Below, one piece after another: positions 1,619-57,539 of a stretch of 64,000 bases of DNA (position 1 is its first letter; each line of letters opens with the position of its first letter). This DNA comes from Spirochaeta lutea (lineage in GTDB: Bacteria; Spirochaetota; Spirochaetia; DSM-27196; Salinispiraceae). The position numbers were made by a program, and so were the translations under genes. The stretch lies in assembly GCF_000758165.1 (NCBI RefSeq), contig NZ_JNUP01000071.1, forward strand, positions 74,853 through 138,852, given 5' to 3'. Under the pieces are notes generated by a model. That model was not told where the DNA came from. It made no database searches and saw nothing but the letters and a program-made list of their open reading frames with translations.

Positions 1619-1674
1619 AGGGTGATTCACATGCCCGGGGTAGATCCCCGGTAGCAAAGGTAGTCACCCTTTTT
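1619..1674 (+). terminator. Probable terminator with nested hairpins
   Basis: AGGGTGA (1619-1625) pairs with TCACCCT (1664-1670). A second hairpin, CCGGGG/CCCCGG, is nested inside, and TTTT follows. The 5' arm is also a copy of the over-represented GGGTGATTC word. Confidence 0.55.
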
Positions 1675-1675
1675 A

Positions 1676-1780
1676 TAGTGCGCAAAAGAATGGAACTTTT
1701 CACCCCGTCGACACCACCCATGAGTGGAAATATTGGTTACTCCGCTATATCTGGTGTCGTTTACAACCTTTTGCGCACTA
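1676..1780. repeat. 105-bp inverted-repeat element, copy A
   Basis: The ends are perfect 13-bp inverted repeats, TAGTGCGCAAAAG and CTTTTGCGCACTA. Total length is exactly 105 bp, the same as copies B (21384-21488) and C (24110-24214). Shared internal blocks are a CGACACCACCC-like stretch about 30-45 bp in and CTATATCTGGTGTCG near the right end. No open frame is conserved. It could be a MITE-like element or the DNA of a structured RNA. Confidence 0.85.
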
Positions 1781-1852
1781 CACACCCTTTTCAGAAATAC
1801 CGGGGTGCGCCTGGCTGGGCGTACACCGGCATTCCGATTTCCGGAGCCGGGT

Positions 1853-15635: not shown

Positions 15636-15911
15636 ATGAATAATTGGTATTCAGATTACCTGCACGGGAATGAATATAGAAACGACCTGCTTCGGGAGGC
15701 TGAACACCGTCGTCTGGTCAACAAGATACGCGTCCGGGGGATTCGGGCTCGCCGGCGGCGGCAGCGTAGAGGTATGTACGCCCTTCGTAGGCTCCTCGGA
15801 CGCTACCTCATCCGACTGGGATCTCGCATAAAAGAGGCGGGAACCCGGATAGCTACCTTTGAGGATCCCCCGGTGAACGCGAAGCCTCGGCCCCGGCCGG
15901 GTCGAGCCTAG
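15636..15911 (+). CDS. Small strongly basic hypothetical protein
   Basis: A 91-residue protein very rich in Arg (clusters near residues 32-47 with ARRRRQRRG, and 51-65). AGGAGG stands nine bases before the ATG, and the gene follows the ArsR-type gene directly. The N-terminus (MNNWYSDYLHGNEYRND) is polar. The basic core could bind nucleic acid, but no family is recognised. The stop lies inside a tandem repeat. Confidence 0.55.
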   Translation: MNNWYSDYLHGNEYRNDLLREAEHRRLVNKIRVRGIRARRRRQRRGMYALRRLLGRYLIRLGSRIKEAGTRIATFEDPPVNAKPRPRPGRA

Positions 15912-15955
15912 GAAGCGAGCCTAGGAAGCGAGCCTAGGAAGCGAGCCTAGGGAGC
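15904..15955. repeat. 13-bp tandem repeat, four copies
   Basis: The unit GAGCCTAGGAAGC is repeated four times (the last copy has one change). It overlaps the 3' end of the small basic gene. Each unit contains the palindrome CCTAGG. Confidence 0.9.
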
Positions 15956-15999
15956 GGCCCTAGGGTATTCAGAGTCGGGGATCAAGCCGGGTCTATTTT

Positions 16000-16780: not shown

Positions 16781-17713
16781 TTAATTGGCCGCCACGGTGA
16801 TGGTAATAGAATCGCTGTAGCTGCCCTCGGTGGGGAACCCCAACTGGGGAATCTCAACCTCCAGGGGGTAGCGCTGTCCGGTAATCTCCGTTGGCCCCTG
16901 GGAGCTGAGGACTGTAACGGTTCCTCCGGAACTGAGGTCCACCAGGCCGGAGTTCAGGTACAGATCGTAGGGGATGGTGCTGGGATCAGCGGGATCGCTG
17001 TGGATCATCTGCCCGGCGTTTTGGGAGCTCATGGAGATGGAGAACAGACCGTTGGAGCGGACCACCAGGTCTGCATTACCGACGCTGGCCGGAGAAATAA
17101 TACCGAAATCGATGGTGTAGTTCGTCCGGGTTTCGTCAAAGAATCCCCCGGGTTCCACAATAGCCAGCTCCAACACCGGCCGTACCCGGGCAGATATGTC
17201 CAGGGTGGTGGACTCGACAAAGGTGTAATTGCTCAAGGTTCCCTGGTACAGGCTCACCGTAACCCCATCATCGTAGTTGCCCTGGAGGAAGACGCCTCCG
17301 GCGATCTGCACGGTAAAAGATGGTTCCTGGCTCTGCCAACCGCCCTTGTTCTTTTCAGGAAAGGTACCGGTTATAACCTCCTCGGGGTTGGGGGAAACGG
17401 AAAGGTCTTTGAGAACGGTCCCCGAGGCCGGGTTATCCACCAGGTAATAGGAGAGGTCGTTGGTGCCGTCGGTCATGGTCCGCGGTTCGAAGCTGCCGCC
17501 GTTTCCAGGCCCGAAGGTTAGGAAGAAGTCGGTGGCGGCTCCCCGGTGCCGGACGGTGAGGGTTCCCGAGGCGGATGTGCTTCCGTCCAGGGTGATCCGG
17601 GCGTTTCCCTGAAAGCCCAGGGTCTGGGCCCAGATACCGGAGCAGGCTAGGGCCGTCAGCAGGAGCAAAAAGACCGGTCGTTTGGGTAGTCCTCGTGTTT
17701 TGTTTTCGCTCAT
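16781..17713 (-). CDS. SCPU-like two-domain secreted pilus protein, probable tip subunit
   Basis: A 310-residue exported protein (signal peptide to about residue 30, ending GIWAQ). It seems to hold two beta domains, the second ending IPYDLYLNSGLVD...GSYSDSITITVAAN, the pattern of spore-coat-U (SCPU) subunits of archaic chaperone-usher pili. The first domain has a related GNYDDGVTVSLYQG strand. It overlaps the end of the usher gene (ATGA), the place where tip adhesins are often encoded. Two-domain build and gene order suggest a tip role like CsuE; receptor and ligand are unknown. Confidence 0.65.
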   Translation of the reverse strand: MSENKTRGLPKRPVFLLLLTALACSGIWAQTLGFQGNARITLDGSTSASGTLTVRHRGAATDFFLTFGPGNGGSFEPRTMTDGTNDLSYYLVDNPASGTVLKDLSVSPNPEEVITGTFPEKNKGGWQSQEPSFTVQIAGGVFLQGNYDDGVTVSLYQGTLSNYTFVESTTLDISARVRPVLELAIVEPGGFFDETRTNYTIDFGIISPASVGNADLVVRSNGLFSISMSSQNAGQMIHSDPADPSTIPYDLYLNSGLVDLSSGGTVTVLSSQGPTEITGQRYPLEVEIPQLGFPTEGSYSDSITITVAAN

Positions 17714-20406
17714 CTTCCTTCTCCTCCTTGTGGTTCTGATTCTCCATCTGCACCATCTCTTACCGGGGTGTCCCCCTCTTCTGCTTGGCCGCCCAGGGGA
17801 CCGAGATCGTACACTTCCTTGGCATCCTGGGGGATTTCAATGGTCCAGGGGCCAGGTCCTCCAAGGAATAACCCGAGGCGGTACGACCCTCCAGGGACAA
17901 AGGGGATTTCAAAATACCCCTGCTCATCCGTATAAAATAACTCCTCGAGGGAGTCGTCGGCCAGGGACTGCAGGTACCCGCCCTGGAGGGCCAGGGCTTC
18001 GCCCCCGGGACCGAGCAGCCTGCCTCGAAGACGGAGGGTCTCCGAGCCGCCGATATCGATGACCGTTCCGCTCCGGTAGCCCGGCTTCACCACATACTGG
18101 GTTGTGCCCAGGGGCAGATCCGTCGGGGCCTGGGGTAGATCAATAACAATTCGGTTCTGGCGATACCGGGTTACATCCGAGAGTACCGCCCAGCCGAGGA
18201 GGTCCGAGGCAGCCCGGTAGGTTGACTCCCGGGGGTTCACCACCAGCCGGTACCCCGCCAGGCTGCGGGTGTTCCTGATTATAACAAAGCTTTCGCGAAT
18301 GGGCTTACTCACCGTGAGCGCAGACCCGGCAAATGCCAGGGCCGATGCGAACCGGGCGGAGACCCGGCTCCCCGTGTTCTGGAGCTGGTACTGCAGCCCC
18401 GATGCGAACCGCTGGTCGCTGAGGGAGGCGCTGAGGGTAAGGGAATCCGCGCTGTCTCCCAGGGGCAATCCCCCGGCGGAAGTGGACAACCCGTAGGCGG
18501 AATCACCGAACCGTCCGGTATGGCTCCCGCTGAAGCCCACCGACCCGTCAACGGCGTTCCTGGATACTCCCATGGTTATGGGTACATCCAGGCCCGAGGC
18601 AGTTAGGTTGATCAACAACCGGGGATCCACCTGGCCCCCGCTGAAGGTAAGGGAGCCGGTAACCCGGAGGTCAAGGGCCTGGGTGATGGGGGTCGTGAGT
18701 ACCAGGGATGCTCGGGTGCGTTCCAGGGCCCCCCGATTCTCATGGGATACGCTGGCACTGAGCCAGAGAGACCCGAAGAGATTCTGGGCAACCCCGGCGG
18801 ACAGGCTGAGCCCGCCCAGGGGGTTTTGACCGTAGGGGGCGAAACTGGGGGACTGGTACCGGGCATCCAGGGAGATTCTGGGCACCGAAATCCGTCCGGG
18901 AAGGGCGAAGCGGTAGCCCGCCTGAAGGGCGCCCCCGGGGCTGCGTAGTTCCTGTACCAGGTCGGTGGTACCGGCAACCCCTAGGGAGAATATGCCCACC
19001 GGGGTTCCGAACACCCAGGTACTCCCGTACAACTGCCCCAGCTCCCCGGCCTGAAGATACAAATCACCGGTGGTAACAGGCGTGTATCCGTAACGAAACA
19101 TTCCCGTGAATACCGGAGGCCCCAGGTCCTGCCTCGGCAGACCCAGCTGGACCCCGAAGTCCGCATAGTGATGGGGTAAGAGGCGGTTATCGTAGGGGAC
19201 TATAACCGACCTGGGTACGGTCTCTCCGGGGCCGGATTCGGGATCCAGGGTGAGATTGACCTGGTTCAATCCCGGCAGGAGGGGCAGTCCAGTAATCCGG
19301 TAAGAACCGGGGGGGTAACTCAGACGCCGGAGATCCCGGCCGTTTACCTGAATCTCCAAGGAGAAATCCCGGGTCTGGGTGAGCTCCAGGCTGAAATCGG
19401 GGCTCCGGGGAACCAGGCTGGGTATCCTGCCCAGATGCACCCCCCAGAGAGCGGGGCCGCTGCCGAAGGGGGACTCGGCACCCTCCAAGAGGCCCAGGCG
19501 CAGCCGCAGGCCCGGCTCCGGCTGGTCGTGGGTAATCATCAGGGTATGCAACACCGGTTCCTGGCCGGTTATGACCTGAAACCTGCTCTCTGCAACCCAG
19601 TTATAGAGATTGAATACCGGCTCCAGCTCAAGGTCCAGGATCGTTTCCAGATCTTTCTGGTTAAGGGTATCCAGGGTCAGGGCTGCCTCGGCGTTTAGGT
19701 ATCCGGAAACCGGAGCGGGTGCGACCGCCACACCGAATAGGCCCGAGCCTTCACCGGTCAGGGAGACCACCCGGACCTCGGAAGAAACCGGGGGCGTTAG
19801 AATCACCTGCAACAATCCGGAATCGAATTCCGCCTCGATACCTTCTGCCCGAAGCTCCTCAAGGCTGATCATACCCGGGGAACCGGCGAACAGTTCGGGC
19901 AGAAGATCCTGAAGGCCGGCCCGGCTGAGGCGAGGATTGCTGCCGTCCGCCAGAAGATCGCCCTCCACGTACCCTGATGCGCCCCCGGAAACCTCTACCA
20001 AGAGGGGCAGGGTAATCCGTGACTGGGGTTGGTCCTGATCGGAGAGGGGGGGATTGGTCTCTAAAAGCGGCGCCGACTCCTGACCCGGGAACTCCGATGC
20101 CGGAGCCTCGGGAGTCGGGCTTTGGGCTCCGGCAGCCAGGGCCAGACCGAAAAAAACGACCAGGCCTCCGAGGAGCAATCCGCTTCTACCGGGCATCCGG
20201 TGCCTTTTCCTGTTCCGACTTCCCCCCCAGACCCGGTTCCGGGCCGGACGCAGGGTCTCGGTCCAGGCCCAGTACCGGTCTTGGGTCGGGTTCTGAAGTG
20301 GGATCCCGGTCCGGTTTCGGTCTCTATCCCGGCACCAGGCCCAGTGTCGGTCTTGGCGCCGGCCCCGACCGAGGCCGAACAGCATAGAAACGCGGGGCAT
20401 GGTCAC
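17710..20406 (-). CDS. Outer-membrane usher of a chaperone-usher pilus
   Basis: 898 codons. After a signal peptide (MPGRSGLLLGGLVV...AGAQS, Met at codon 71) come a 100-200 residue N-terminal domain, a plug-like segment with SYPPGSYRITGLPLLPG and VPYDNRLLPHHYADFGVQLG, a long beta-barrel region with repeated G-x-S-x-S strands, and a C-terminal beta-sandwich (YTDEQGYFEIPFVPGGSY). These match ushers of the archaic type, which thread pilin subunits through the outer membrane. The start is odd: the coupled GTG or ATG overlapping the chaperone stop would add 70 Arg/Trp-rich residues before the signal peptide; ATG at 20196 is a possible true start. Confidence 0.75.
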   Translation of the reverse strand: MTMPRVSMLFGLGRGRRQDRHWAWCRDRDRNRTGIPLQNPTQDRYWAWTETLRPARNRVWGGSRNRKRHRMPGRSGLLLGGLVVFFGLALAAGAQSPTPEAPASEFPGQESAPLLETNPPLSDQDQPQSRITLPLLVEVSGGASGYVEGDLLADGSNPRLSRAGLQDLLPELFAGSPGMISLEELRAEGIEAEFDSGLLQVILTPPVSSEVRVVSLTGEGSGLFGVAVAPAPVSGYLNAEAALTLDTLNQKDLETILDLELEPVFNLYNWVAESRFQVITGQEPVLHTLMITHDQPEPGLRLRLGLLEGAESPFGSGPALWGVHLGRIPSLVPRSPDFSLELTQTRDFSLEIQVNGRDLRRLSYPPGSYRITGLPLLPGLNQVNLTLDPESGPGETVPRSVIVPYDNRLLPHHYADFGVQLGLPRQDLGPPVFTGMFRYGYTPVTTGDLYLQAGELGQLYGSTWVFGTPVGIFSLGVAGTTDLVQELRSPGGALQAGYRFALPGRISVPRISLDARYQSPSFAPYGQNPLGGLSLSAGVAQNLFGSLWLSASVSHENRGALERTRASLVLTTPITQALDLRVTGSLTFSGGQVDPRLLINLTASGLDVPITMGVSRNAVDGSVGFSGSHTGRFGDSAYGLSTSAGGLPLGDSADSLTLSASLSDQRFASGLQYQLQNTGSRVSARFASALAFAGSALTVSKPIRESFVIIRNTRSLAGYRLVVNPRESTYRAASDLLGWAVLSDVTRYRQNRIVIDLPQAPTDLPLGTTQYVVKPGYRSGTVIDIGGSETLRLRGRLLGPGGEALALQGGYLQSLADDSLEELFYTDEQGYFEIPFVPGGSYRLGLFLGGPGPWTIEIPQDAKEVYDLGPLGGQAEEGDTPVRDGADGESEPQGGEGR

Positions 20407-21182
20407 CTCACCGCGGTGAATGAAAACTCAGCAGAAAGCCCACGGCCTGCCAGATGGTCCGGCAGGGGCAGGACGACCCGGCGCAGGGCTCCGGCCAAGA
20501 GGTTTTCTCCGGCAATTCCCGGTAACTCCTCCGGGGTGAAGCTAATGGTGCTGTCAGGATTATCCTGGGCGGAGATGGTGAGGCTCAGGTCGTTAAGGAT
20601 GGTATGGGCGTTGCCGCTGTTTTCAAAGATCAGCTCCGCGGCCGGTTTGGAGTCCTGGATTATGGGGGTGATACTCCGGATAGCAACCTGATGGCGGGGG
20701 TTTTCCGGAAGGATGTACACTGCCCCCCGGTAGCGGAACATGATATTTATGGCGCCACCCTGGGTCTGCCGGGATTCGAACTCCACAGGTAATTGCTCGG
20801 CAACGATCCGGAAGGCCTGTTCGCGGTCAATCTGTTCCGGACCCCGCCACTGGATGCGTATTGCCTGGACCTGGCCGGGCCTGAGCACCATCTGTTGGGG
20901 AAAAACCACAAACTTATCCGCCGCATCTCGGTTGACCTCCCTGCCGTCCAATCTGGATTCCCGGGTAAACATCCGGACCCGCAGGGCTATGGGATCTGAG
21001 CCGGTGTTCTCCGCTATAAAGGTGTGGACGGCCTCGGGACCCCGGGGCGCGAGGTCGGCGGATATGGGCTGGAACCGAAAGGCCCATAGGGGTACAGCGG
21101 TCAGAATAAGCAATATTCCTATGAGGGTCGTTTTGCCGCTTTTCGGTGGGAATTTCAGACGGTTTTTCCAGGGGTGATTCAC
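20403..21182 (-). CDS. PapD-like periplasmic pilus chaperone
   Basis: A 259-residue exported protein with two Ig-like domains. The N-terminal one starts FRFQPISADLAPRGPEAVHTF after the signal peptide and contains FVVFPQQMVLRPGQVQAIRIQWRG, the strand that carries subunit-binding residues in PapD-family chaperones. EQAFRIVAEQLPVEF follows. The start is GTG at 21182, with AGGAGG five bases upstream. It is the first gene of a three-gene unit with 4-base overlaps (chaperone, usher, tip-like subunit). It should hold subunits in the periplasm until the usher accepts them. Confidence 0.8.
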   Translation of the reverse strand: MNHPWKNRLKFPPKSGKTTLIGILLILTAVPLWAFRFQPISADLAPRGPEAVHTFIAENTGSDPIALRVRMFTRESRLDGREVNRDAADKFVVFPQQMVLRPGQVQAIRIQWRGPEQIDREQAFRIVAEQLPVEFESRQTQGGAINIMFRYRGAVYILPENPRHQVAIRSITPIIQDSKPAAELIFENSGNAHTILNDLSLTISAQDNPDSTISFTPEELPGIAGENLLAGALRRVVLPLPDHLAGRGLSAEFSFTAVR

Positions 21183-21383
21183 AGTAGCCTCCTATAGAAT
21201 GGCCGGTTAGGGGTGCATTTCATGTACAGGGCAGAGTAGTACCCAGCTAATACCCGATGCCCCGCCGTACCGTGCAGGTCATGTACAGGGGCAAGGCGCC
21301 TTCCTTCCCCTTCCTGCTCCGGGCGGCGAGGGAGGAGCCGGTTGTGCATCGGTCTCTACACGCCCGCTACCCCAACGTATTTA

Positions 21384-21488
21384 TAGTGCGCAAAAGGTTG
21401 TAACTTTTTACCCTGGTGACACCATCCCTGGGTTGGTTCCCGAACTGCGCCACTATATATGGCGTAGTTTACAACCTTTTGCGCACTA
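21384..21488. repeat. 105-bp inverted-repeat element, copy B (best preserved)
   Basis: The ends TAGTGCGCAAAAGGTTGTAA and TTACAACCTTTTGCGCACTA are perfect 20-bp inverted repeats. Length is exactly 105 bp. It lies between the pilin terminator and the chaperone gene. Its internal TGACACCATCCC and ACTATATATGGCG match copies A and C. Confidence 0.9.
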
Positions 21489-21609
21489 CAAAAAGTATAG
21501 TGTCCAAACCGATGTTCGTGTCCATCTTAGGGTCGCGGCCCCGTGGGGGACCAGGAATGCAGCCGCCCAATTCGGCCCGCTCACCGGGGTTGTACACTCG
21601 GGAAAAGAA

Positions 21610-23802: not shown

Positions 23803-23904
23803 CCGGGCCGGGAACCCCGGGGGTGGAATGACGTACCCGGGCCGGGAACCCCAGGGGACGGAATGATGTACCCGGGCCGGGATAACCGGGGGTGAAATGA
23901 CGTC
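23803..23904. repeat. Degenerate 33-35-bp tandem repeat, three copies
   Basis: Copies start CCGGGCCGGGAACCCC, CCGGGCCGGGAACCCC and CCGGGCCGGGATAACC, and end in ATGACGTAC, ATGATGTAC and ATGACGTC. They lie in the noncoding stretch after the XRE operon. Confidence 0.8.
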
Positions 23905-23972
23905 CCGGTTTTCCGGTTGCGCGTTGCCTGTGTTAGGGCCTTGCTGTGCGTGTTTTCCGGTTGCGGCGGGCC

Positions 23973-24087
23973 GTCTGGGTGTGCCCGCTAGTCTGTTATT
24001 CTCCGGCCGTCTGGGTGTGCCCGCTGGTCTGTTATTGTCCGGCCGTCTGGGTATGCTCGCTTGTCTGTTATTGTCCGGCCGTCTGGC
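23973..24087. repeat. 36-bp tandem repeat, three copies and a fragment
   Basis: Units at 23973-24008, 24009-24044 and 24045-24080 begin GTCTGGGTGTGCCCGC or close variants and end TGTTATTGTCCGGCC. A 7-base fragment follows. Several frames stay open through the repeat on both strands because 36 is a multiple of three, but none has a convincing start. There are no spacers, so it is not a CRISPR. Confidence 0.9.
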
Positions 24088-24109
24088 TGCCCGGCCTGTT
24101 TGGGATTCA

Positions 24110-24214
24110 TAGTGCACAAAAGGTTGTAACATTTCCCCCTGGCGACGCTACCCAAGGCTGGGATTTTTGTTTGTACCGCTATATCCGGTGCAATGTACAA
24201 CCTTTTGCACACTA
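24110..24214. repeat. 105-bp inverted-repeat element, copy C
   Basis: The ends TAGTGCACAAAAGGTTGTAA and GTACAACCTTTTGCACACTA pair at 17 of 20 positions. Length is again exactly 105 bp. The internal CGACGCTACCC and CGCTATATCCGGTGC match the other copies. Confidence 0.85.
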
Positions 24215-24347
24215 ATTTTGGTATTGAGAGGTTGTTGTCTGGTCGTGGGCGGTTGTCCGAGTTTGCATGGCTACCCGGTTGCCCTACCCTACCCAGAAAA
24301 GCCGGGAATGAACCATTAGGCTATAAGGTCTGATTTTTTTACGTCTA

Positions 24348-24419: not shown

Positions 24420-25364
24420 ATGCAACGTATTGCGCGTTTTTGTCTATATGGTGTATTGGTTGTAGGTGCAGGGGTCAGCGGCCTCTTTGCCGGTCCGGCC
24501 CGGGAAGCGGCCCCAATACAGGGTGAGGAGCATCGCGAGGTTACCCATAAACTCGGAACCGTCGCTATCCCGGAGCAGCCCCAGCGGCCGGTAGTATTCA
24601 GCTACGACATTCTGGATCTGCTCCAAGCCTTGGATATTCAGGCTGCAGCGATTCCCATGCCCACCCTGCCATCCTACCTGGCTCGGGGAGTCGGAGAGGA
24701 CACTGCCGATGCAGGAACCCTCTTTGAACCGGACTATGAGGGATTGTTCCGCCTCAATCCCCAGGTAATCTTCATTTCGGACCGGCAGACCCCGGTGTAC
24801 GATCAATTGAGCGAGATAGCTCCGGTGGTCTACACGGGCATTGCCGCCGAGGATTACCTTGCGTCACTTGAAAAAAACTGGTCTATTGTCGGGAATCTCT
24901 ACGGAAAGCAGGATCAGGTTGAGGGGTATCTGGAAGAAATCACCCTTCGGGCTGATACCCTGGCCGCGGCAGCCCGGGAATCCGGCTTAACAGCCCTGGT
25001 ACTGATGGTTAACGACGGTTCCTTGAGCGTCTACGGTCCGGGATCACGGTTCGGGTATGTGTATGACAGCTTCGGCTACGTACCTGCTGATCCGGCGATT
25101 GAGACCTCAACCCACGGCCAGAGTGTTTCCTTTGAATACCTTGCCAGCCAGAATCCCGACATCCTCTTCGTATTGGACCGGGGACAGGCCTTAACCGGAA
25201 ACCTGACAGCCGATTCGGTTCTGGATAACGAGATTGTAGCCAGGACCGCAGCAGCCCGGGAGGGCAGGATCGTCTATGTAGATCCCCAGGCATGGTACCT
25301 CGCTCCCGGGGGATTGGATTCTACCCGGGCAATTCTCAGGGATCTCGAGTCAGCCCTGGAATAG
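24420..25364 (+). CDS. Ferric-siderophore ABC transporter, periplasmic binding protein
   Basis: A 314-residue class III solute-binding protein with signal peptide (cleavage near residue 24, no lipobox). The two lobes are joined by a long helix about residues 145-185. KLGTVAIPEQPQRPVVFSYDILDLLQAL, FEPDYEGLFRLNPQVIFISDR and LSEIAPVVYTG are typical of the catecholate-type YclQ/CeuE group. GGAGGTAAGT precedes the ATG. It heads a five-gene operon with two permeases, an ATPase and a flavin reductase. An outer-membrane receptor must be encoded elsewhere. Confidence 0.9.
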   Translation: MQRIARFCLYGVLVVGAGVSGLFAGPAREAAPIQGEEHREVTHKLGTVAIPEQPQRPVVFSYDILDLLQALDIQAAAIPMPTLPSYLARGVGEDTADAGTLFEPDYEGLFRLNPQVIFISDRQTPVYDQLSEIAPVVYTGIAAEDYLASLEKNWSIVGNLYGKQDQVEGYLEEITLRADTLAAAARESGLTALVLMVNDGSLSVYGPGSRFGYVYDSFGYVPADPAIETSTHGQSVSFEYLASQNPDILFVLDRGQALTGNLTADSVLDNEIVARTAAAREGRIVYVDPQAWYLAPGGLDSTRAILRDLESALE

Positions 25365-25374
25365 GATCCTGCCC

Positions 25375-26319
25375 ATGACTACCCGCCACGCCCGCCTCCT
25401 GGAGGCGGGTCTCGTTCTCCTGATTATTGCAGCCGGGGGGCTCTCCCTGGCTATGGGCTCATCGGTTACCGACGGGTTTATTCTGGTGTATAGCCGGCTG
25501 CCCCGGCTTCTGGCCCTGGTACTTTCCGGGGCGGGGGTTAGTCTCGCCGGGCTGGTAATGCAGAAGATCAGCCGTAATCCCTTTGCCAGCGGCGAGACCG
25601 CGGGAACCATGGACTTTGCGGCCCTGGGCTATGTCCTGGCTCTGGGGGTCTTTCGAGCCGAGAGTGTGATGGCGCGGCTGTCCCTGGCCTTTATAGGCGC
25701 AATGATCGGTACAAGTATTTTTTTCCTGCTTCTGCGGCGTTTAGGGCGGAACTCTGTGCTCCATGTTCCCCTCTTGGGGATTATGCTGGGCTTCTTGGTG
25801 AACGGCCTAACCCAGATCCTGGCCTACCGTTTTGACCTGCTCCAGGGGCTCTCCAGCTGGATGTTCGCGGATTTCTCCCTGGTTATTGCCGGTCGGTACG
25901 AGTTTCTGTTCCTGGTGGTACCTGTGGTCGCAGGCACCTGGATCATGGGGCATCACCTGACCATCGCCGGTCTAGGAGAGGATATGGCAACGAACCTAGG
26001 GAGCAATTTCCGGCTTACCAGGAATCTGGGACTGGTCGTAGTGTCGATAATGAGTGCCCTGGTGGTGGTTATTGCCGGTCGAATCCCCTTTTTGGGACTC
26101 ATCGTACCGAATCTGATTCTCCGGGGTGTGTCGGATAATGTCCGGGCGGTTCTTCCCTTAACCGCCCTCTCCGGCGCCGTTCTGCTTTTGATTTCGGATA
26201 TCAGCGGAAGACTCATCATCCAGCCCTATGAAATTCCTGTCGGTTTGACCATGGGTGTAGTCGGCGGCGGGGTGTTCCTCGTAATGCTCTCCCGCTGGAG
26301 AGGCAGGCAGTATGGCTGA
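25375..26319 (+). CDS. FecCD-type siderophore permease 1
   Basis: A 314-residue inner-membrane permease of the BtuC/FecCD family with eight to ten helices. RLPRLLALVLSGAGVSLAGLVMQKISRNPFASGETAG near residues 38-75 is the family signature, and VIAGRIPFLGLIVPNLIL is the ATPase-contact region. It starts 10 bases after the binding-protein stop and overlaps the second permease by eight bases. It should form a heterodimer with that protein; YclN is the likely equivalent. Confidence 0.9.
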   Translation: MTTRHARLLEAGLVLLIIAAGGLSLAMGSSVTDGFILVYSRLPRLLALVLSGAGVSLAGLVMQKISRNPFASGETAGTMDFAALGYVLALGVFRAESVMARLSLAFIGAMIGTSIFFLLLRRLGRNSVLHVPLLGIMLGFLVNGLTQILAYRFDLLQGLSSWMFADFSLVIAGRYEFLFLVVPVVAGTWIMGHHLTIAGLGEDMATNLGSNFRLTRNLGLVVVSIMSALVVVIAGRIPFLGLIVPNLILRGVSDNVRAVLPLTALSGAVLLLISDISGRLIIQPYEIPVGLTMGVVGGGVFLVMLSRWRGRQYG

Positions 26320-27319
26320 GATCACCCTTGCCCCCGGAAAAGAGGGGAAGTCCAAGCTGACCAAGGGGCTCAGCCGGCTGGGCTCACCGGCGGTTCTAGC
26401 CGGTTTATTGCTAGTTCTGGTGGGGTGGTTCCTGGTAGACGGTCTGGACGGGTCTACCTGGCGCTACTTTCTCCAGCGAAGGCTTCCGATGGTCGGGGCT
26501 ATCGTATTGGCGTCTTGGTGTTCTGCAGCTGCTACCTTGATGCTTCAAACCGCCGGGGCCAACCCCATCCTATCCCCGGGTATTCTCGGCATCGACGCCT
26601 GGTACATCCTCATCCAGAGTCTGGCTGTGTTCTTCTTTTCCAGCGATGCCTGGATTATTCAGTCCCCCTTGCTTAACCTCGCCGTGACTCTTCCATTAAT
26701 GCTGGTATACAGCACAATCCTGTTCAGCCGGATTCGCAGTACCAGGGGTGGAATGCAGCTACTATTGATCCAAGGGATTATCATGGCAGGATTTCTTTCC
26801 AGTGTAACTAATTACCTGCAAAAGATAATCGATCCCAACGAGTTTTCCCTGATTCAGACCCGGCTCTTTGCCTCGGTGACCAACATCCACGGGCCGACCC
26901 TCTTGGCCGCCCTTCCCATCTTCATCCTCTTACTGGCGGTGACTGCTGCCAAACACCGAACCCTGGATGTGCTGCTACTCGGCCGGGATCAAAGCATCAA
27001 CCTCGGGTTATCCTACGGCAGGGAGCTATTTGTGGTGCTCTCTCTTGTCAGCGGGTTCACCGCCCTTTCAACCGCTGTTATCGGTCCCCTGCCCTTCCTC
27101 GGTCTGGTCGCTGTAACCCTGGCCAGGCGGACATCCCGGGGCTACACCCACCGGGAGCTGCTGATCCGCTCCATGCTCATCTCCGCCCTAGTTATGATGG
27201 CTGGCCATCTCCTGCTTACCAAGGTTATGGGTGGAGTCATCCCCCTACCCCCGATGCTGAACGTCTTTGGCGGCGGGGTATTTCTGCTGCTACTTATCAG
27301 GAGGCCCATGTTTGATTGA
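26312..27319 (+). CDS. FecCD-type siderophore permease 2
   Basis: A 335-residue partner of the previous permease. RRLPMVGAIVLASWCSAAATLMLQTAGANPILSPGILG is the family N-terminal signature, and AVIGPLPFLGLVAVTLARRTS is the cytoplasmic coupling loop. About nine hydrophobic segments. YclO-like. Its last codons overlap the start of the ATPase gene, showing tight coupling within the operon. The N-terminal 25 residues are polar and may be cytoplasmic. Confidence 0.9.
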   Translation: MAEITLAPGKEGKSKLTKGLSRLGSPAVLAGLLLVLVGWFLVDGLDGSTWRYFLQRRLPMVGAIVLASWCSAAATLMLQTAGANPILSPGILGIDAWYILIQSLAVFFFSSDAWIIQSPLLNLAVTLPLMLVYSTILFSRIRSTRGGMQLLLIQGIIMAGFLSSVTNYLQKIIDPNEFSLIQTRLFASVTNIHGPTLLAALPIFILLLAVTAAKHRTLDVLLLGRDQSINLGLSYGRELFVVLSLVSGFTALSTAVIGPLPFLGLVAVTLARRTSRGYTHRELLIRSMLISALVMMAGHLLLTKVMGGVIPLPPMLNVFGGGVFLLLLIRRPMFD

Positions 27320-28067
27320 GGTACAATCCATTTACAAATCCTACGGCGCCCTGCCAGTCCTGGAGGGGATCTCTACCCGATTCTCCCCGGGCACCATCAG
27401 TACGATTTTAGGTTCTAACGGTGCGGGTAAGAGCACCTTATTAAACATCATGGGCCGCCTGCTTTCCCTTGACCGGGGATCTATTCTCTTGAAAGGTCAG
27501 GATATCTCCCAGGTATCTGCCAAGGAGCTGGCCAGAACCATGGCGATTCTGAAACAGAATACCCAGGTCCAAGCCCGGCTCACAGTCCGCGAACTGGTTG
27601 AATTCGGACGCTTTCCCCACAGCCAGGGGCGGATAACCCCGAGAGATAGCCATGCCATTGATCATGCCCTGGAGTTTACAGCCCTGGAGGACATCCAAGG
27701 CCGTCTAATCCAGGAACTCAGCGGCGGCCAACGGCAGCGGGCCTTCATCGCCATGGTCATAGCCCAGGAGAGCCCCCTCATTCTCCTGGACGAACCCCTA
27801 AACAGCCTGGACCTTCGCCACGGGGTCCAGATTCTTGAGCTGCTCCAGCGCCTCCGGGACGAACAGGGTAAGACCATTATCATGGTTCTCCATGATCTGA
27901 ATCTTGCTCTGCATTTTTCCGACCACATCCTCGCACTCAGCCAAGGAACTATTTCCTTCGAAGGCCATCCCGAGGATTTCGCCAGGAACGACCGCTTACA
28001 ACCGGTATTCGGCTTGGAATTCGACTTCCTGCCCTACAAACGGAGAACCCTATGTCTGCATTACTAA
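27312..28067 (+). CDS. Siderophore ABC transporter ATP-binding protein
   Basis: A 251-residue ABC ATPase: Walker A GSNGAGKST (about residues 35-43), Q-loop LKQNTQVQARLTV, signature LSGGQRQR, Walker B ILLDEPL, and switch His in MVLHDLN. YclP-like. TTG at 27312 is the likely start: AGGAGG lies seven bases upstream and the encoded N-terminus (IEVQSIYKSYG) matches the family. The upstream Met at 27267 is unlikely because it lies within the permease membrane segment. It overlaps both neighbouring genes. Confidence 0.9.
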   Translation: MIEVQSIYKSYGALPVLEGISTRFSPGTISTILGSNGAGKSTLLNIMGRLLSLDRGSILLKGQDISQVSAKELARTMAILKQNTQVQARLTVRELVEFGRFPHSQGRITPRDSHAIDHALEFTALEDIQGRLIQELSGGQRQRAFIAMVIAQESPLILLDEPLNSLDLRHGVQILELLQRLRDEQGKTIIMVLHDLNLALHFSDHILALSQGTISFEGHPEDFARNDRLQPVFGLEFDFLPYKRRTLCLHY

Positions 28068-28885
28068 ACACATCCCCGGACCCAACCCCGGATTCGAAAA
28101 AGAGCCATGTTCCCAAGGACGGGGGACACGGCAACGCACATCCGCCTTGGCTTCACACCCTCAAAGTCTCAGCAATCCGCCACGAATTTGACGACACCTG
28201 GTCGTATTTCTTGGAACTGCCCCCGGAAAAGAACCCGGCCCTTACATTTATTCCCGGACAGTTCATCCATCTGGTAGCCCCCGGGGCCCCGGTGAGTAAG
28301 CCCACCGTCCGCCACATGTCCATCGCCAGCATCCCTGAGGACGGCCACCTGCGTATTGCCATGAGTCTGGCATCCGGCAGTCCGTACAAACAGGCATTTC
28401 GGTCCTTAAGGCCCGGACAGTACCTTCAGGTATTCGGCATTACTGGAAGCTTCTCCCTGGCTTCCCTCCCGGAAAAGACCCCTCTGGTCTTCATCGCCGG
28501 GGGAATCGGTATAACCCCCATCATGAGCCTGATGCGCCACATCGCAGATAAACAGCTCAATCATCCCTGGGGCCTCATCCATGTGGCAAATACCCACCTA
28601 TTTAGGTCCGAGATTGATCAGCTCTTCCCGGAAAACCCCAGAATTTACTGTTCCCGGCATGGCATAGACTCTGCCCTGGATAGCCCCGGATTGCCGGCCA
28701 GAGAGGCAGAGGAAAGACCCCAGATCGGAACCCCTCCCCCGGGGCAGGGACACAGAACCTTCGAGGTTCAATCAACCCAGTATTTTCTCTGCGGATCGGG
28801 AGGATTTCTGGCGAGTATAACCCGGAAGCTGCTGGACCGGGGTATTCCCCCGGAATCCATCCGTACAGAAGATTTTGATCACTAG
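28052..28885 (+). CDS. FNR-family flavin reductase, probable siderophore reductase
   Basis: A 277-residue cytosolic oxidoreductase of the ferredoxin-NADP reductase fold. The FAD-binding motif is RHMSIAS (the usual R-x-Y-S with Met for Tyr), the NAD(P) motif is GGIGITPIMSLMRH, and the end is CGSGGF...TEDFDH. No iron-sulfur Cys set is present. A Pro/Gly-rich insert of about 30 residues lies near residue 215. As the last gene of the siderophore operon, overlapping the ATPase by 16 bases, it probably reduces the imported ferric complex to release iron. Confidence 0.8.
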   Translation: MSALLNTSPDPTPDSKKSHVPKDGGHGNAHPPWLHTLKVSAIRHEFDDTWSYFLELPPEKNPALTFIPGQFIHLVAPGAPVSKPTVRHMSIASIPEDGHLRIAMSLASGSPYKQAFRSLRPGQYLQVFGITGSFSLASLPEKTPLVFIAGGIGITPIMSLMRHIADKQLNHPWGLIHVANTHLFRSEIDQLFPENPRIYCSRHGIDSALDSPGLPAREAEERPQIGTPPPGQGHRTFEVQSTQYFLCGSGGFLASITRKLLDRGIPPESIRTEDFDH

Positions 28886-54809: not shown

Positions 54810-57539
54810 ATGATCAGCGCCGGCACCCCGGAAGAACAATCCAACAAATCCCTGGGCAGCCATCCGGGGCGGGCCCGGGGCCGGATCGCCGTGCTTACTG
54901 CCGAGGTCAATGAGGCCTACCAGGCCGAGCTCTGGCGGGGCATCACCGCCGAGGCCAGGCGGCACTCGAAACAGCTGGTTTGTTTTGTCGGTTCCCGGGT
55001 GGATTCCCCCATCCAACAGGAAGCCGCATCCAATGCCATCTACCGCCAGGCCCACTCGGGCAATTTCGACGGCATCATCATCATTTCATCGGCGGTTTCT
55101 ACCTATTTGGACCCCCAGCAGGTACAGTTCCTCTTTGACGCCCACCCCCGGCTTCCCCGGGTATCGGTAGGCATACCCGTGGAAGGGGTCTCGAGTGTCT
55201 GTGTGGACGGCCGTAGCGCCATGGCTGAGGTTACCCGTCACCTGATCTACGATCACCACCGCCGGAATTTCGCGGTCATCGCCGGCCCCCAGTGGCACCC
55301 CGAATCGGAGGAGCGGCGGCACACCATCCAGGACACCCTGGGCCGGGCGGGGCTGAACCTGAAAGACGATTTAGTGATCCACGGAAATTTCCAGCACAAG
55401 TCCGGCAGGGACGCCATGGCTGCCCTCCTGGATCAGGGCCACCCCATAGATGCCCTGCTCTGCCTCAACGACCGGATGGCCATGGGAGCCGTGGAGGAGC
55501 TGACCCGCCGAGGAATTACCGTGCCCCAGGACATATCGGTGTGCGGTTTCGACGGCATCGAAGAATCGGAATTCTGCTCCCCGCCCCTGACAACCGTCAT
55601 CCAACCCCTCTACGATCTGGGGGTTCAGGCCGTGCAGGAGCTCTACCTGCTCATGGAGGGAGGTACGGCCAGGCACACCACCCTGGACTGCCGCCCCCTG
55701 ATCCGCCAAAGCTGCTCCTGCTCCGCCCTGTCCCAGCTCCGGCTGCGCACGGCGAACCCAAGGACCGTACCGGAACCCGAGAAATCGCCCGGGGATTCCC
55801 CGACCGCCGAGCCGCCCGACTCGTCCGATCCGTCTGATCCACCCGATCCACCAGACTCGCCCGATCTGTCCAATCCGTCCGATCCACACGATCCGTCCGA
55901 GCCACACGATCCAGCCGACCCGGCACCCGGAAAAAGTCAGCCGGCGCCTGCCCCCATCCGGGACAACGTCCCCTCCGGGCTGGCTGGAACAGGCGAATCA
56001 CCCCTGGACCAAGAGCCCCAGGCCTTTATCGATACCCTGGACGAACTGGTAACCCGGGCCAGCTTTGAGAGCACGGATATCCGGCGGTGGAACGCCGTCC
56101 TGGACCGGATCGAGGCCGGCCTTACCGGCACGGACCATGCCGAACCCTGGCTCCGGGTCATTCTCCGGGGCAGGGAGATTCTCGCCGAAAGCCGGACCAG
56201 GCGCCTGGTAGAGACCAGGATTCAGAAACGCAACCGCCTGGATGTACTGCGCAGCGTGGGCACCAGCCTTTCCGAGGCCTTTGAAATGCCAGAAATTTTC
56301 CGGCGGCTCACCGAGGGGCTGGTGCGGTTGGGGTTCCAAGACGCCTTTTTGGTGCTCTACCGCCCGGGAACCAGGACCGGAGACCTCATTTTCCATATGG
56401 AATCGGGCATCCAAAAGCCCGTCAGCCCCCGGCGGGTTGAGCCCCTGGAAATTCTGCCGGCCTCCATGGCCGATCTTCAGCGGCGGAATATGCCTATCTG
56501 GATTCTGACTCCCCTGGTCTTCCAAGACCGGGCCATCGGCCACCTTCTGCTGCCCGGAGACCACCCGGACACCGAGGTATACGACACCCTGACTAAGCAG
56601 ATCGCCAGCTCCATTCAAGGCGCTACCCTCCTGGAACGCATCAAATCCCACGAACAGAGCCTCGAACAGGAGGTTCAGCACCGCACCCGGGAACTGACCC
56701 AGGTGAACGCCGACCTGCGCCAGGAAATCGCTACCCGGGTCCGGCTCGAACAGGAGGTTATCGACATCTCCAAGCACACCATGGAGCGGATTGGACAAGA
56801 CCTCCACGACGACCTCTGCCAGCATCTGGCGGGAATAACCATGCACGTCAGCGCCCTGGGACGCCGTATCGGGCCGGTTTCCCCGGAGTCCCTTGTGGTG
56901 TTGGAGCAGATCAACTCCCTCCTGGGCGATTCCATCCAGCGCGCCAAATCCCTGGTCCGGGGACTTCTGCCCCCGGGGCTCCGGGAGGAAGGATTATCCC
57001 GGGCGGTGGAGCATCTCTGCCGGGAGATCAGCCGGGCTTCGGGGGTCCAGGTGGATTTCCATGCCCCGTCCTCCCTCACCGAGCTGGATGTGGACCGGGG
57101 CATTGAATTGTACCGGATCATCCAAGAGGCCCTGAACAACGCGGTGAAGCACTCCGGTTCCCCCCGGATCCTGGTCAGCCTCTCGCCCCCCGACCCGGAG
57201 ACCGGAAACGGAGACAGAGACGGCGTCAAAGCCGGAGACGGAGAATCCCAGAAAATTCTCCTAACCGTGGATATCCGGGACTGGGGCCGGGGATTCCCCG
57301 ACCAGAACCACGATCAGGGTATGGGGCTAAAAATCATGCGGTACCGGGGCGAGAAGGCCGATATTCAAGTGGATCTGGAGCACCCCGGACAGGGCAGCCT
57401 GGTACGCTGCCGGGTGCTGGACCGCCGGGCAGGAGGCCCGGCATCCGGAACCGGGAATGCCCGGACCGGGTCGCGCAGATCCCCGGACCGTGTCCCCGGC
57501 CAGGGGAATCACCAAAACACCCATCCACCCCAGGAGTAG
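54810..57539 (+). CDS. LacI-type sensor histidine kinase (NarL/HisKA_3 class)
   Basis: 909 residues with no signal or membrane helix, so cytosolic. Residues about 24-310 are a LacI-like sugar-binding fold (AELWRGITAEARRH, CLNDRMAMGAVEEL, ISVCGFDGIEES) without DNA-binding head. A Pro/Asp/Ser linker (about 330-395) follows, then a GAF-like domain (about 475-600), a coiled coil, and the HisKA_3 site with His 666 in RIGQDLHDDLCQHL. ATP motifs are EALNNAVKHSG and DWGRGFP, GMGLK. It probably senses an intracellular sugar and phosphorylates the regulator encoded two bases later. The low-complexity C-terminal tail is unusual. Confidence 0.85.
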   Translation: MISAGTPEEQSNKSLGSHPGRARGRIAVLTAEVNEAYQAELWRGITAEARRHSKQLVCFVGSRVDSPIQQEAASNAIYRQAHSGNFDGIIIISSAVSTYLDPQQVQFLFDAHPRLPRVSVGIPVEGVSSVCVDGRSAMAEVTRHLIYDHHRRNFAVIAGPQWHPESEERRHTIQDTLGRAGLNLKDDLVIHGNFQHKSGRDAMAALLDQGHPIDALLCLNDRMAMGAVEELTRRGITVPQDISVCGFDGIEESEFCSPPLTTVIQPLYDLGVQAVQELYLLMEGGTARHTTLDCRPLIRQSCSCSALSQLRLRTANPRTVPEPEKSPGDSPTAEPPDSSDPSDPPDPPDSPDLSNPSDPHDPSEPHDPADPAPGKSQPAPAPIRDNVPSGLAGTGESPLDQEPQAFIDTLDELVTRASFESTDIRRWNAVLDRIEAGLTGTDHAEPWLRVILRGREILAESRTRRLVETRIQKRNRLDVLRSVGTSLSEAFEMPEIFRRLTEGLVRLGFQDAFLVLYRPGTRTGDLIFHMESGIQKPVSPRRVEPLEILPASMADLQRRNMPIWILTPLVFQDRAIGHLLLPGDHPDTEVYDTLTKQIASSIQGATLLERIKSHEQSLEQEVQHRTRELTQVNADLRQEIATRVRLEQEVIDISKHTMERIGQDLHDDLCQHLAGITMHVSALGRRIGPVSPESLVVLEQINSLLGDSIQRAKSLVRGLLPPGLREEGLSRAVEHLCREISRASGVQVDFHAPSSLTELDVDRGIELYRIIQEALNNAVKHSGSPRILVSLSPPDPETGNGDRDGVKAGDGESQKILLTVDIRDWGRGFPDQNHDQGMGLKIMRYRGEKADIQVDLEHPGQGSLVRCRVLDRRAGGPASGTGNARTGSRRSPDRVPGQGNHQNTHPPQE

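Follow-up and report, generated by a model that had tools for sequence, protein, structure and literature searches.

Type II MITEs of prokaryotes, with the Correia, ERIC, Chunjie and QMITE families as examples, have been reviewed (PMC10969869). The repeats analyzed here resemble these elements in being short, non-coding and intergenic, in having inverted ends, target duplications and a high copy number, and in sharing similarity with the helper insertion sequence (IS) only at the ends. They differ in being unrelated in sequence to Correia, ERIC, Chunjie and QMITE and in residing in a spirochaete, and whereas sizes within the Chunjie and QMITE families span a wide range, this family is nearly fixed at 105 or 106 bp between the ends as first described. 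A described MITE of this type was not found in the literature searched. The repeats are MITEs, a genuine and ordinary kind of element but a new family, and it is very probable that the copies in the window (the whole stretch of 64,000 nucleotides analyzed) moved with the help of a larger IS bearing near-identical ends. The spirochaetes thereby gain a MITE family of high copy number together with an IS that is its likely helper.

The original prediction placed three 105-bp inverted-repeat copies at 1676-1780, 21384-21488 and 24110-24214, and both inspection of the ends and a family profile confirmed this; run on the window, the profile matched exactly these three copies, with no match at E <= 10 against the reversed window. 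The inverted ends comprise 13 uninterrupted bases in the first copy, 20 uninterrupted bases in the second and 5 + 12 bases around a two-base mismatch in the third. The first copy is 88.6% identical to the family consensus, and the closest copies to the second elsewhere in the genome are up to 97% identical to it. The inverted ends are thus as claimed, but the mobile unit is 109 bp rather than 105 bp, reaching 2 bp beyond the original boundary at either end (Table 1).

Table 1. Window coordinates of the three MITE copies and of the duplicated target sites that flank them
Feature	Position	Strand	Remarks
Left target-site duplication, copy 1, CACCCTTTT	1665..1673		9/9 identical to 1783-1791
MITE copy 1, 109 bp (105 bp + 2 bp per side)	1674..1782	+	Profile E 2.9e-28
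Right target-site duplication, copy 1	1783..1791		9/9 identical to 1665..1673
Left target-site duplication, copy 2, CAACGTATT, eroded	21373..21381		6/9 identical to 21491-21499
MITE copy 2, 109 bp, perfect 20-bp inverted ends	21382..21490	+	Profile E 1.1e-28
Right target-site duplication, copy 2, AAAAGTATA	21491..21499		6/9 vs left side
Left target-site duplication, copy 3, TTTGGGATT	24099..24107		8/9 identical to 24217-24225
MITE copy 3, 109 bp	24108..24216	+	Profile E 7.9e-26
Right target-site duplication, copy 3, TTTGGTATT	24217..24225		8/9 vs left side

These boundaries follow from the flanks. Comparison of the left flank from -11 to -3 with the right flank from +3 to +11 yielded 762 matches against 499 expected, with a far weaker excess at the adjoining offsets. 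Agreement at 7 or more of the 9 duplication positions was seen in 52 of 121 copies, and the same threshold applied to shuffled flanks gave a mean of 2.0 and a maximum of 7 over 1000 trials. Because the flanks match at a 2-bp offset, the mobile unit is 109 bp with a 9-bp duplication, and duplications of this length are present around the window copies to the extents given in Table 1. The target consensus in the flanks of family copies is the palindrome WAANNNTTW. A nested case at C28:2305-2492, in which one copy sits inside an older copy with an 8/9 duplication, is consistent with the 109-bp unit and its 9-bp duplication. A TA-type duplication (IS630/Tc1-mariner) at the TA ends was rejected, since the duplication spans 9 bp and is located 2 bp outside those ends. 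A search for empty sites within the genome showed none, the sole spanning match proving to be the query locus with another copy next to it.

The further genomic copies expected of a mobile element are present in large numbers. With up to 3 mismatches allowed, the 3.53-Mb genome holds 354 instances of the 20-bp end TAGTGCGCAAAAGGTTGTAA (171 forward, 183 reverse), and a reversed control pattern gave 0 occurrences genome-wide under the same limit. Within the 1.24 Mb read we found 158 distinct copies, of which 127 are full and 31 are partial; this part of the genome is enriched in copies because it was picked mainly around exact ends. Scaling on the ends, 237 of 354 of which fall inside the part read, puts the family at very roughly 200 copies in the whole genome. 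The 20-bp ends are conserved at about 94% per column, and the spacing among 109 paired ends is 105 bp in 78 and 106 bp in 20. With genes called by a simple ORF heuristic, 103 of the 127 full copies have most of their length outside ORFs, compared with 10% for randomly chosen positions, and sites between convergent genes are mildly over-represented. Outside this genome, the exact 20-bp end had no match in collections of genome contigs and viral contigs, and blastn with the window MITE across 60 relatives returned none.

The non-autonomous transposable element that had been offered as one reading of the repeats is therefore upheld by copy number, 9-bp duplications, intergenic placement and the presence of a longer IS with the same ends in the genome. 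The unit of 109 bp falls inside the 50-500 bp range of MITEs and has no transposase gene, and terminal inverted repeats, a duplication of fixed length and many dispersed copies are all found. A related autonomous element that shares these ends is represented by the IS ends at contig breaks and by complete relatives in G002, a closed genome from the family to which the window genome belongs. The other reading originally offered, a conserved folded RNA or protein-binding site, fared poorly. The family consensus does fold into a long hairpin (-51.6 kcal/mol) and contains an inner inverted repeat, and the constant length, the intergenic location and the mild excess between convergent genes would also suit a hairpin of RNA or DNA that is conserved for its structure, serving as a regulator, terminator or recombination site, and whose inverted ends are kept for folding. 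Covariation was assessed by direct pair counts, with one side shuffled among copies as the control. The arms pair at 92.3% against 92.3% when shuffled, the inner GACACCA/TGGTGT stem at 85.0% against 85.1% and the predicted interior fold at 72.6% against 72.3%, and therefore mutations in the arms and interior are not compensated; peaks of mutual information do not coincide with base pairs of the fold. Rfam gave 0 matches in the window above the gathering score. Given also the 9-bp target duplications around the copies, we consider folding as the reason for the conserved ends very improbable, and because compensatory pairing is absent from both ends and interior we assign the repeats to MITEs rather than to folded RNA.

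A candidate helper is present in the same genome. Longer sequences with MITE-like ends lie at 22 contig ends, split evenly between a left type TAGTGCGCAAAACCCTGTAACTTTTTACAAACC (11) and a right type TAGTGCGCAAAAGCCTGTAACTTTTTTGTGCC (11); their ends match the MITE end at 18/20 positions, the longest piece runs 325 bp into contig C68, and the right type includes the final 86 codons of a transposase gene. The 22 pieces look like a multi-copy insertion sequence that breaks the assembly, which is of practical note in that at least 22 contig ends fall at the partner IS. Matching left and right flanks across contigs gave one 9/9 pair (TAACGATTT, the end of C68 with the end of C46) and one 8/9 pair, the probability of any 9/9 pair arising by column permutation being 0.012. 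Judging from these pairs, the IS appears to duplicate 9 bp at the same 2-bp offset, as the MITE does. An intact partner transposase in this genome is putative and is deduced from relatives because the IS interior is missing from the assembly. At C63:209304-209454 of G000 (L110) a 151-bp hybrid consists of the MITE's left half followed by the right end of the IS, with both ends intact, and could be a birth intermediate of the MITE or a recombinant.

Mobilization of the MITE in trans by this partner is the most likely course of events. The IS transposase would bind the ends of the MITE, pair them and insert the element at cuts staggered by 9 bp, and the MITE would for this reason multiply by parasitizing the insertion sequence; its interior would be free to change, and its ends, perhaps also their distance, would not. 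The two positions within 20 bp at which the IS ends depart from the MITE consensus, together with an IS interior that is unreadable in the assembly, leave some room for a transposase other than that of the contig-break IS. We nevertheless think this improbable, as IS and MITE agree in their ends, in the 9-bp duplication and in the 2-bp offset, other genomes of the host family show the same partnership between an IS and a MITE with altered ends, and the MITE/IS hybrid exists. One other transposase family was sought, DDE_Tnp_1 (PF01609), and was rejected as the partner, giving one fragment only.

The C-terminus of the partner transposase is 47% identical to complete proteins of G002. No Pfam family covers the protein, weak HTH matches alone being obtained, so that the helper IS brings with it a transposase family lacking a Pfam model, and it scores 20.3 and 26.6 bits with the NCBIfam IS1 models, for which the cut-off is 100. 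A structure predicted with a pLDDT of 84.6 had retroviral integrases as its best PDB matches in Foldseek (E 2e-4, low TM-scores) and a mariner-type transposase domain as a weaker match, again with a low TM-score. The predicted fold appears RNase H-like, and D126, D216 and E277, invariant across 12 relatives and with the third residue in a poorly modelled stretch, make up a candidate DDE triad. Members of the IS1 family duplicate 8-9 bp of target, usually 9 bp. The partner resembles them in an N-terminal cysteine-rich region with HTH-like matches followed by a putative DDE-type domain, in the sub-threshold NCBIfam matches and apparently in the 9-bp duplication, which for the partner IS is drawn from the single 9/9 and single 8/9 cross-contig flank pairs. 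It differs from them in scoring 20-27 bits against the cut-off of 100, in belonging to no Pfam family and in having a transposase that is a single reading frame of 376-398 aa in relatives. Named genomes carrying the transposase are mostly Spirochaetes, and the protein of a Spirochaetaceae MAG (L323) starts and ends exactly as in L167, a same-order relative of the window, which places the window in a spirochaete; the plasmid records searched for the transposase contained none.

Pairs of IS and MITE with matching ends recur in three relatives of the host family. G002 has two kinds of IS of about 1338 and 1398 bp, with transposases of 376 and 398 aa, and the second kind starts with AGTGCACCAAAGCTTGTAA, which is 4/19 bases off the MITE end. 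G001, G002 and G003 have their own MITEs with ends matching those IS end types. Measured from AGTG to CACT, on which count the window family is 103 bp, the MITEs are 131 and 141/142 bp in G002, mostly 144/145 bp in G001, and mostly 102/103 bp with some of 113 bp in G003, the main length in G003 being that of the window family. Across the loci L359-L398 of these three genomes, families of ~93, 103, 113, 131, 142 and 145 bp were noted on the same measure, several of the steps being near one helical turn, with 131 outside any single series. The target duplications of the G002 MITEs have the same geometry but are weak (66 matches vs 54 expected, p about 0.02), which counts against the reading of the window family as a MITE with its helper. 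Interior homology between genera is limited to weak hints of 8-9 bits in two G003 copies and one G002 copy, with none in three shuffles.

The constant length can be explained in two ways. Recent insertions, taken as copies with a duplication of at least 8/9, are 21-23% off consensus in the interior and 31% from each other, with arms at about 4%, and thus the interiors diverged before insertion. The length may simply reflect shared descent and a low indel rate with no spacing requirement of the transposase, and we put the chances of this slightly above even: all copies are of common origin, the end-to-end copies compared for length were chosen by profile, and the difference in copies with private indels between recent (1/29) and old (5/26) insertions is suggestive at most (p = 0.09). 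Against it, recent insertions some 31% apart inside are yet 105 or 106 bp in 28 of 29 end-to-end copies, with one private indel to about 450 substitutions, whereas old copies show an excess of about 1 indel per 23 substitutions, and the G003 family, whose interior is different, is equally long. These data hint at selection on the distance between the ends, or at a role for that distance in transposition. We tentatively entertain, at less than an even chance, a partner from an unnamed, spirochaete-centred IS family that needs a set end distance, so that its MITEs would be selected for length (about ten helical turns) as their interior drifts. A fixed length with a drifting interior offers a natural test of the need for end spacing in very short transposons.

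The window has other features. Tandem arrays at 23803-23908 (34-bp unit, 3.1 copies) and 23969-24086 (36-bp unit, 3.3 copies) adjoin MITE copy 3, and downstream of both lies a putative operon for an iron-siderophore ABC transporter (24420-28885). On the minus strand at 17710-21182, a gene for a PapD-like chaperone (E 1.9e-9) adjoins that of an 898-aa protein with a weak, below-cut-off match to outer-membrane ushers (E 2e-4), and these matches suggest that this spirochaete has a divergent chaperone-usher locus here. Further short tandem repeats occur at 1-64, 221-311, 15903-15964 and 55799-55918, and at the window start an 18-bp unit is repeated 3.6 times with no mismatch.
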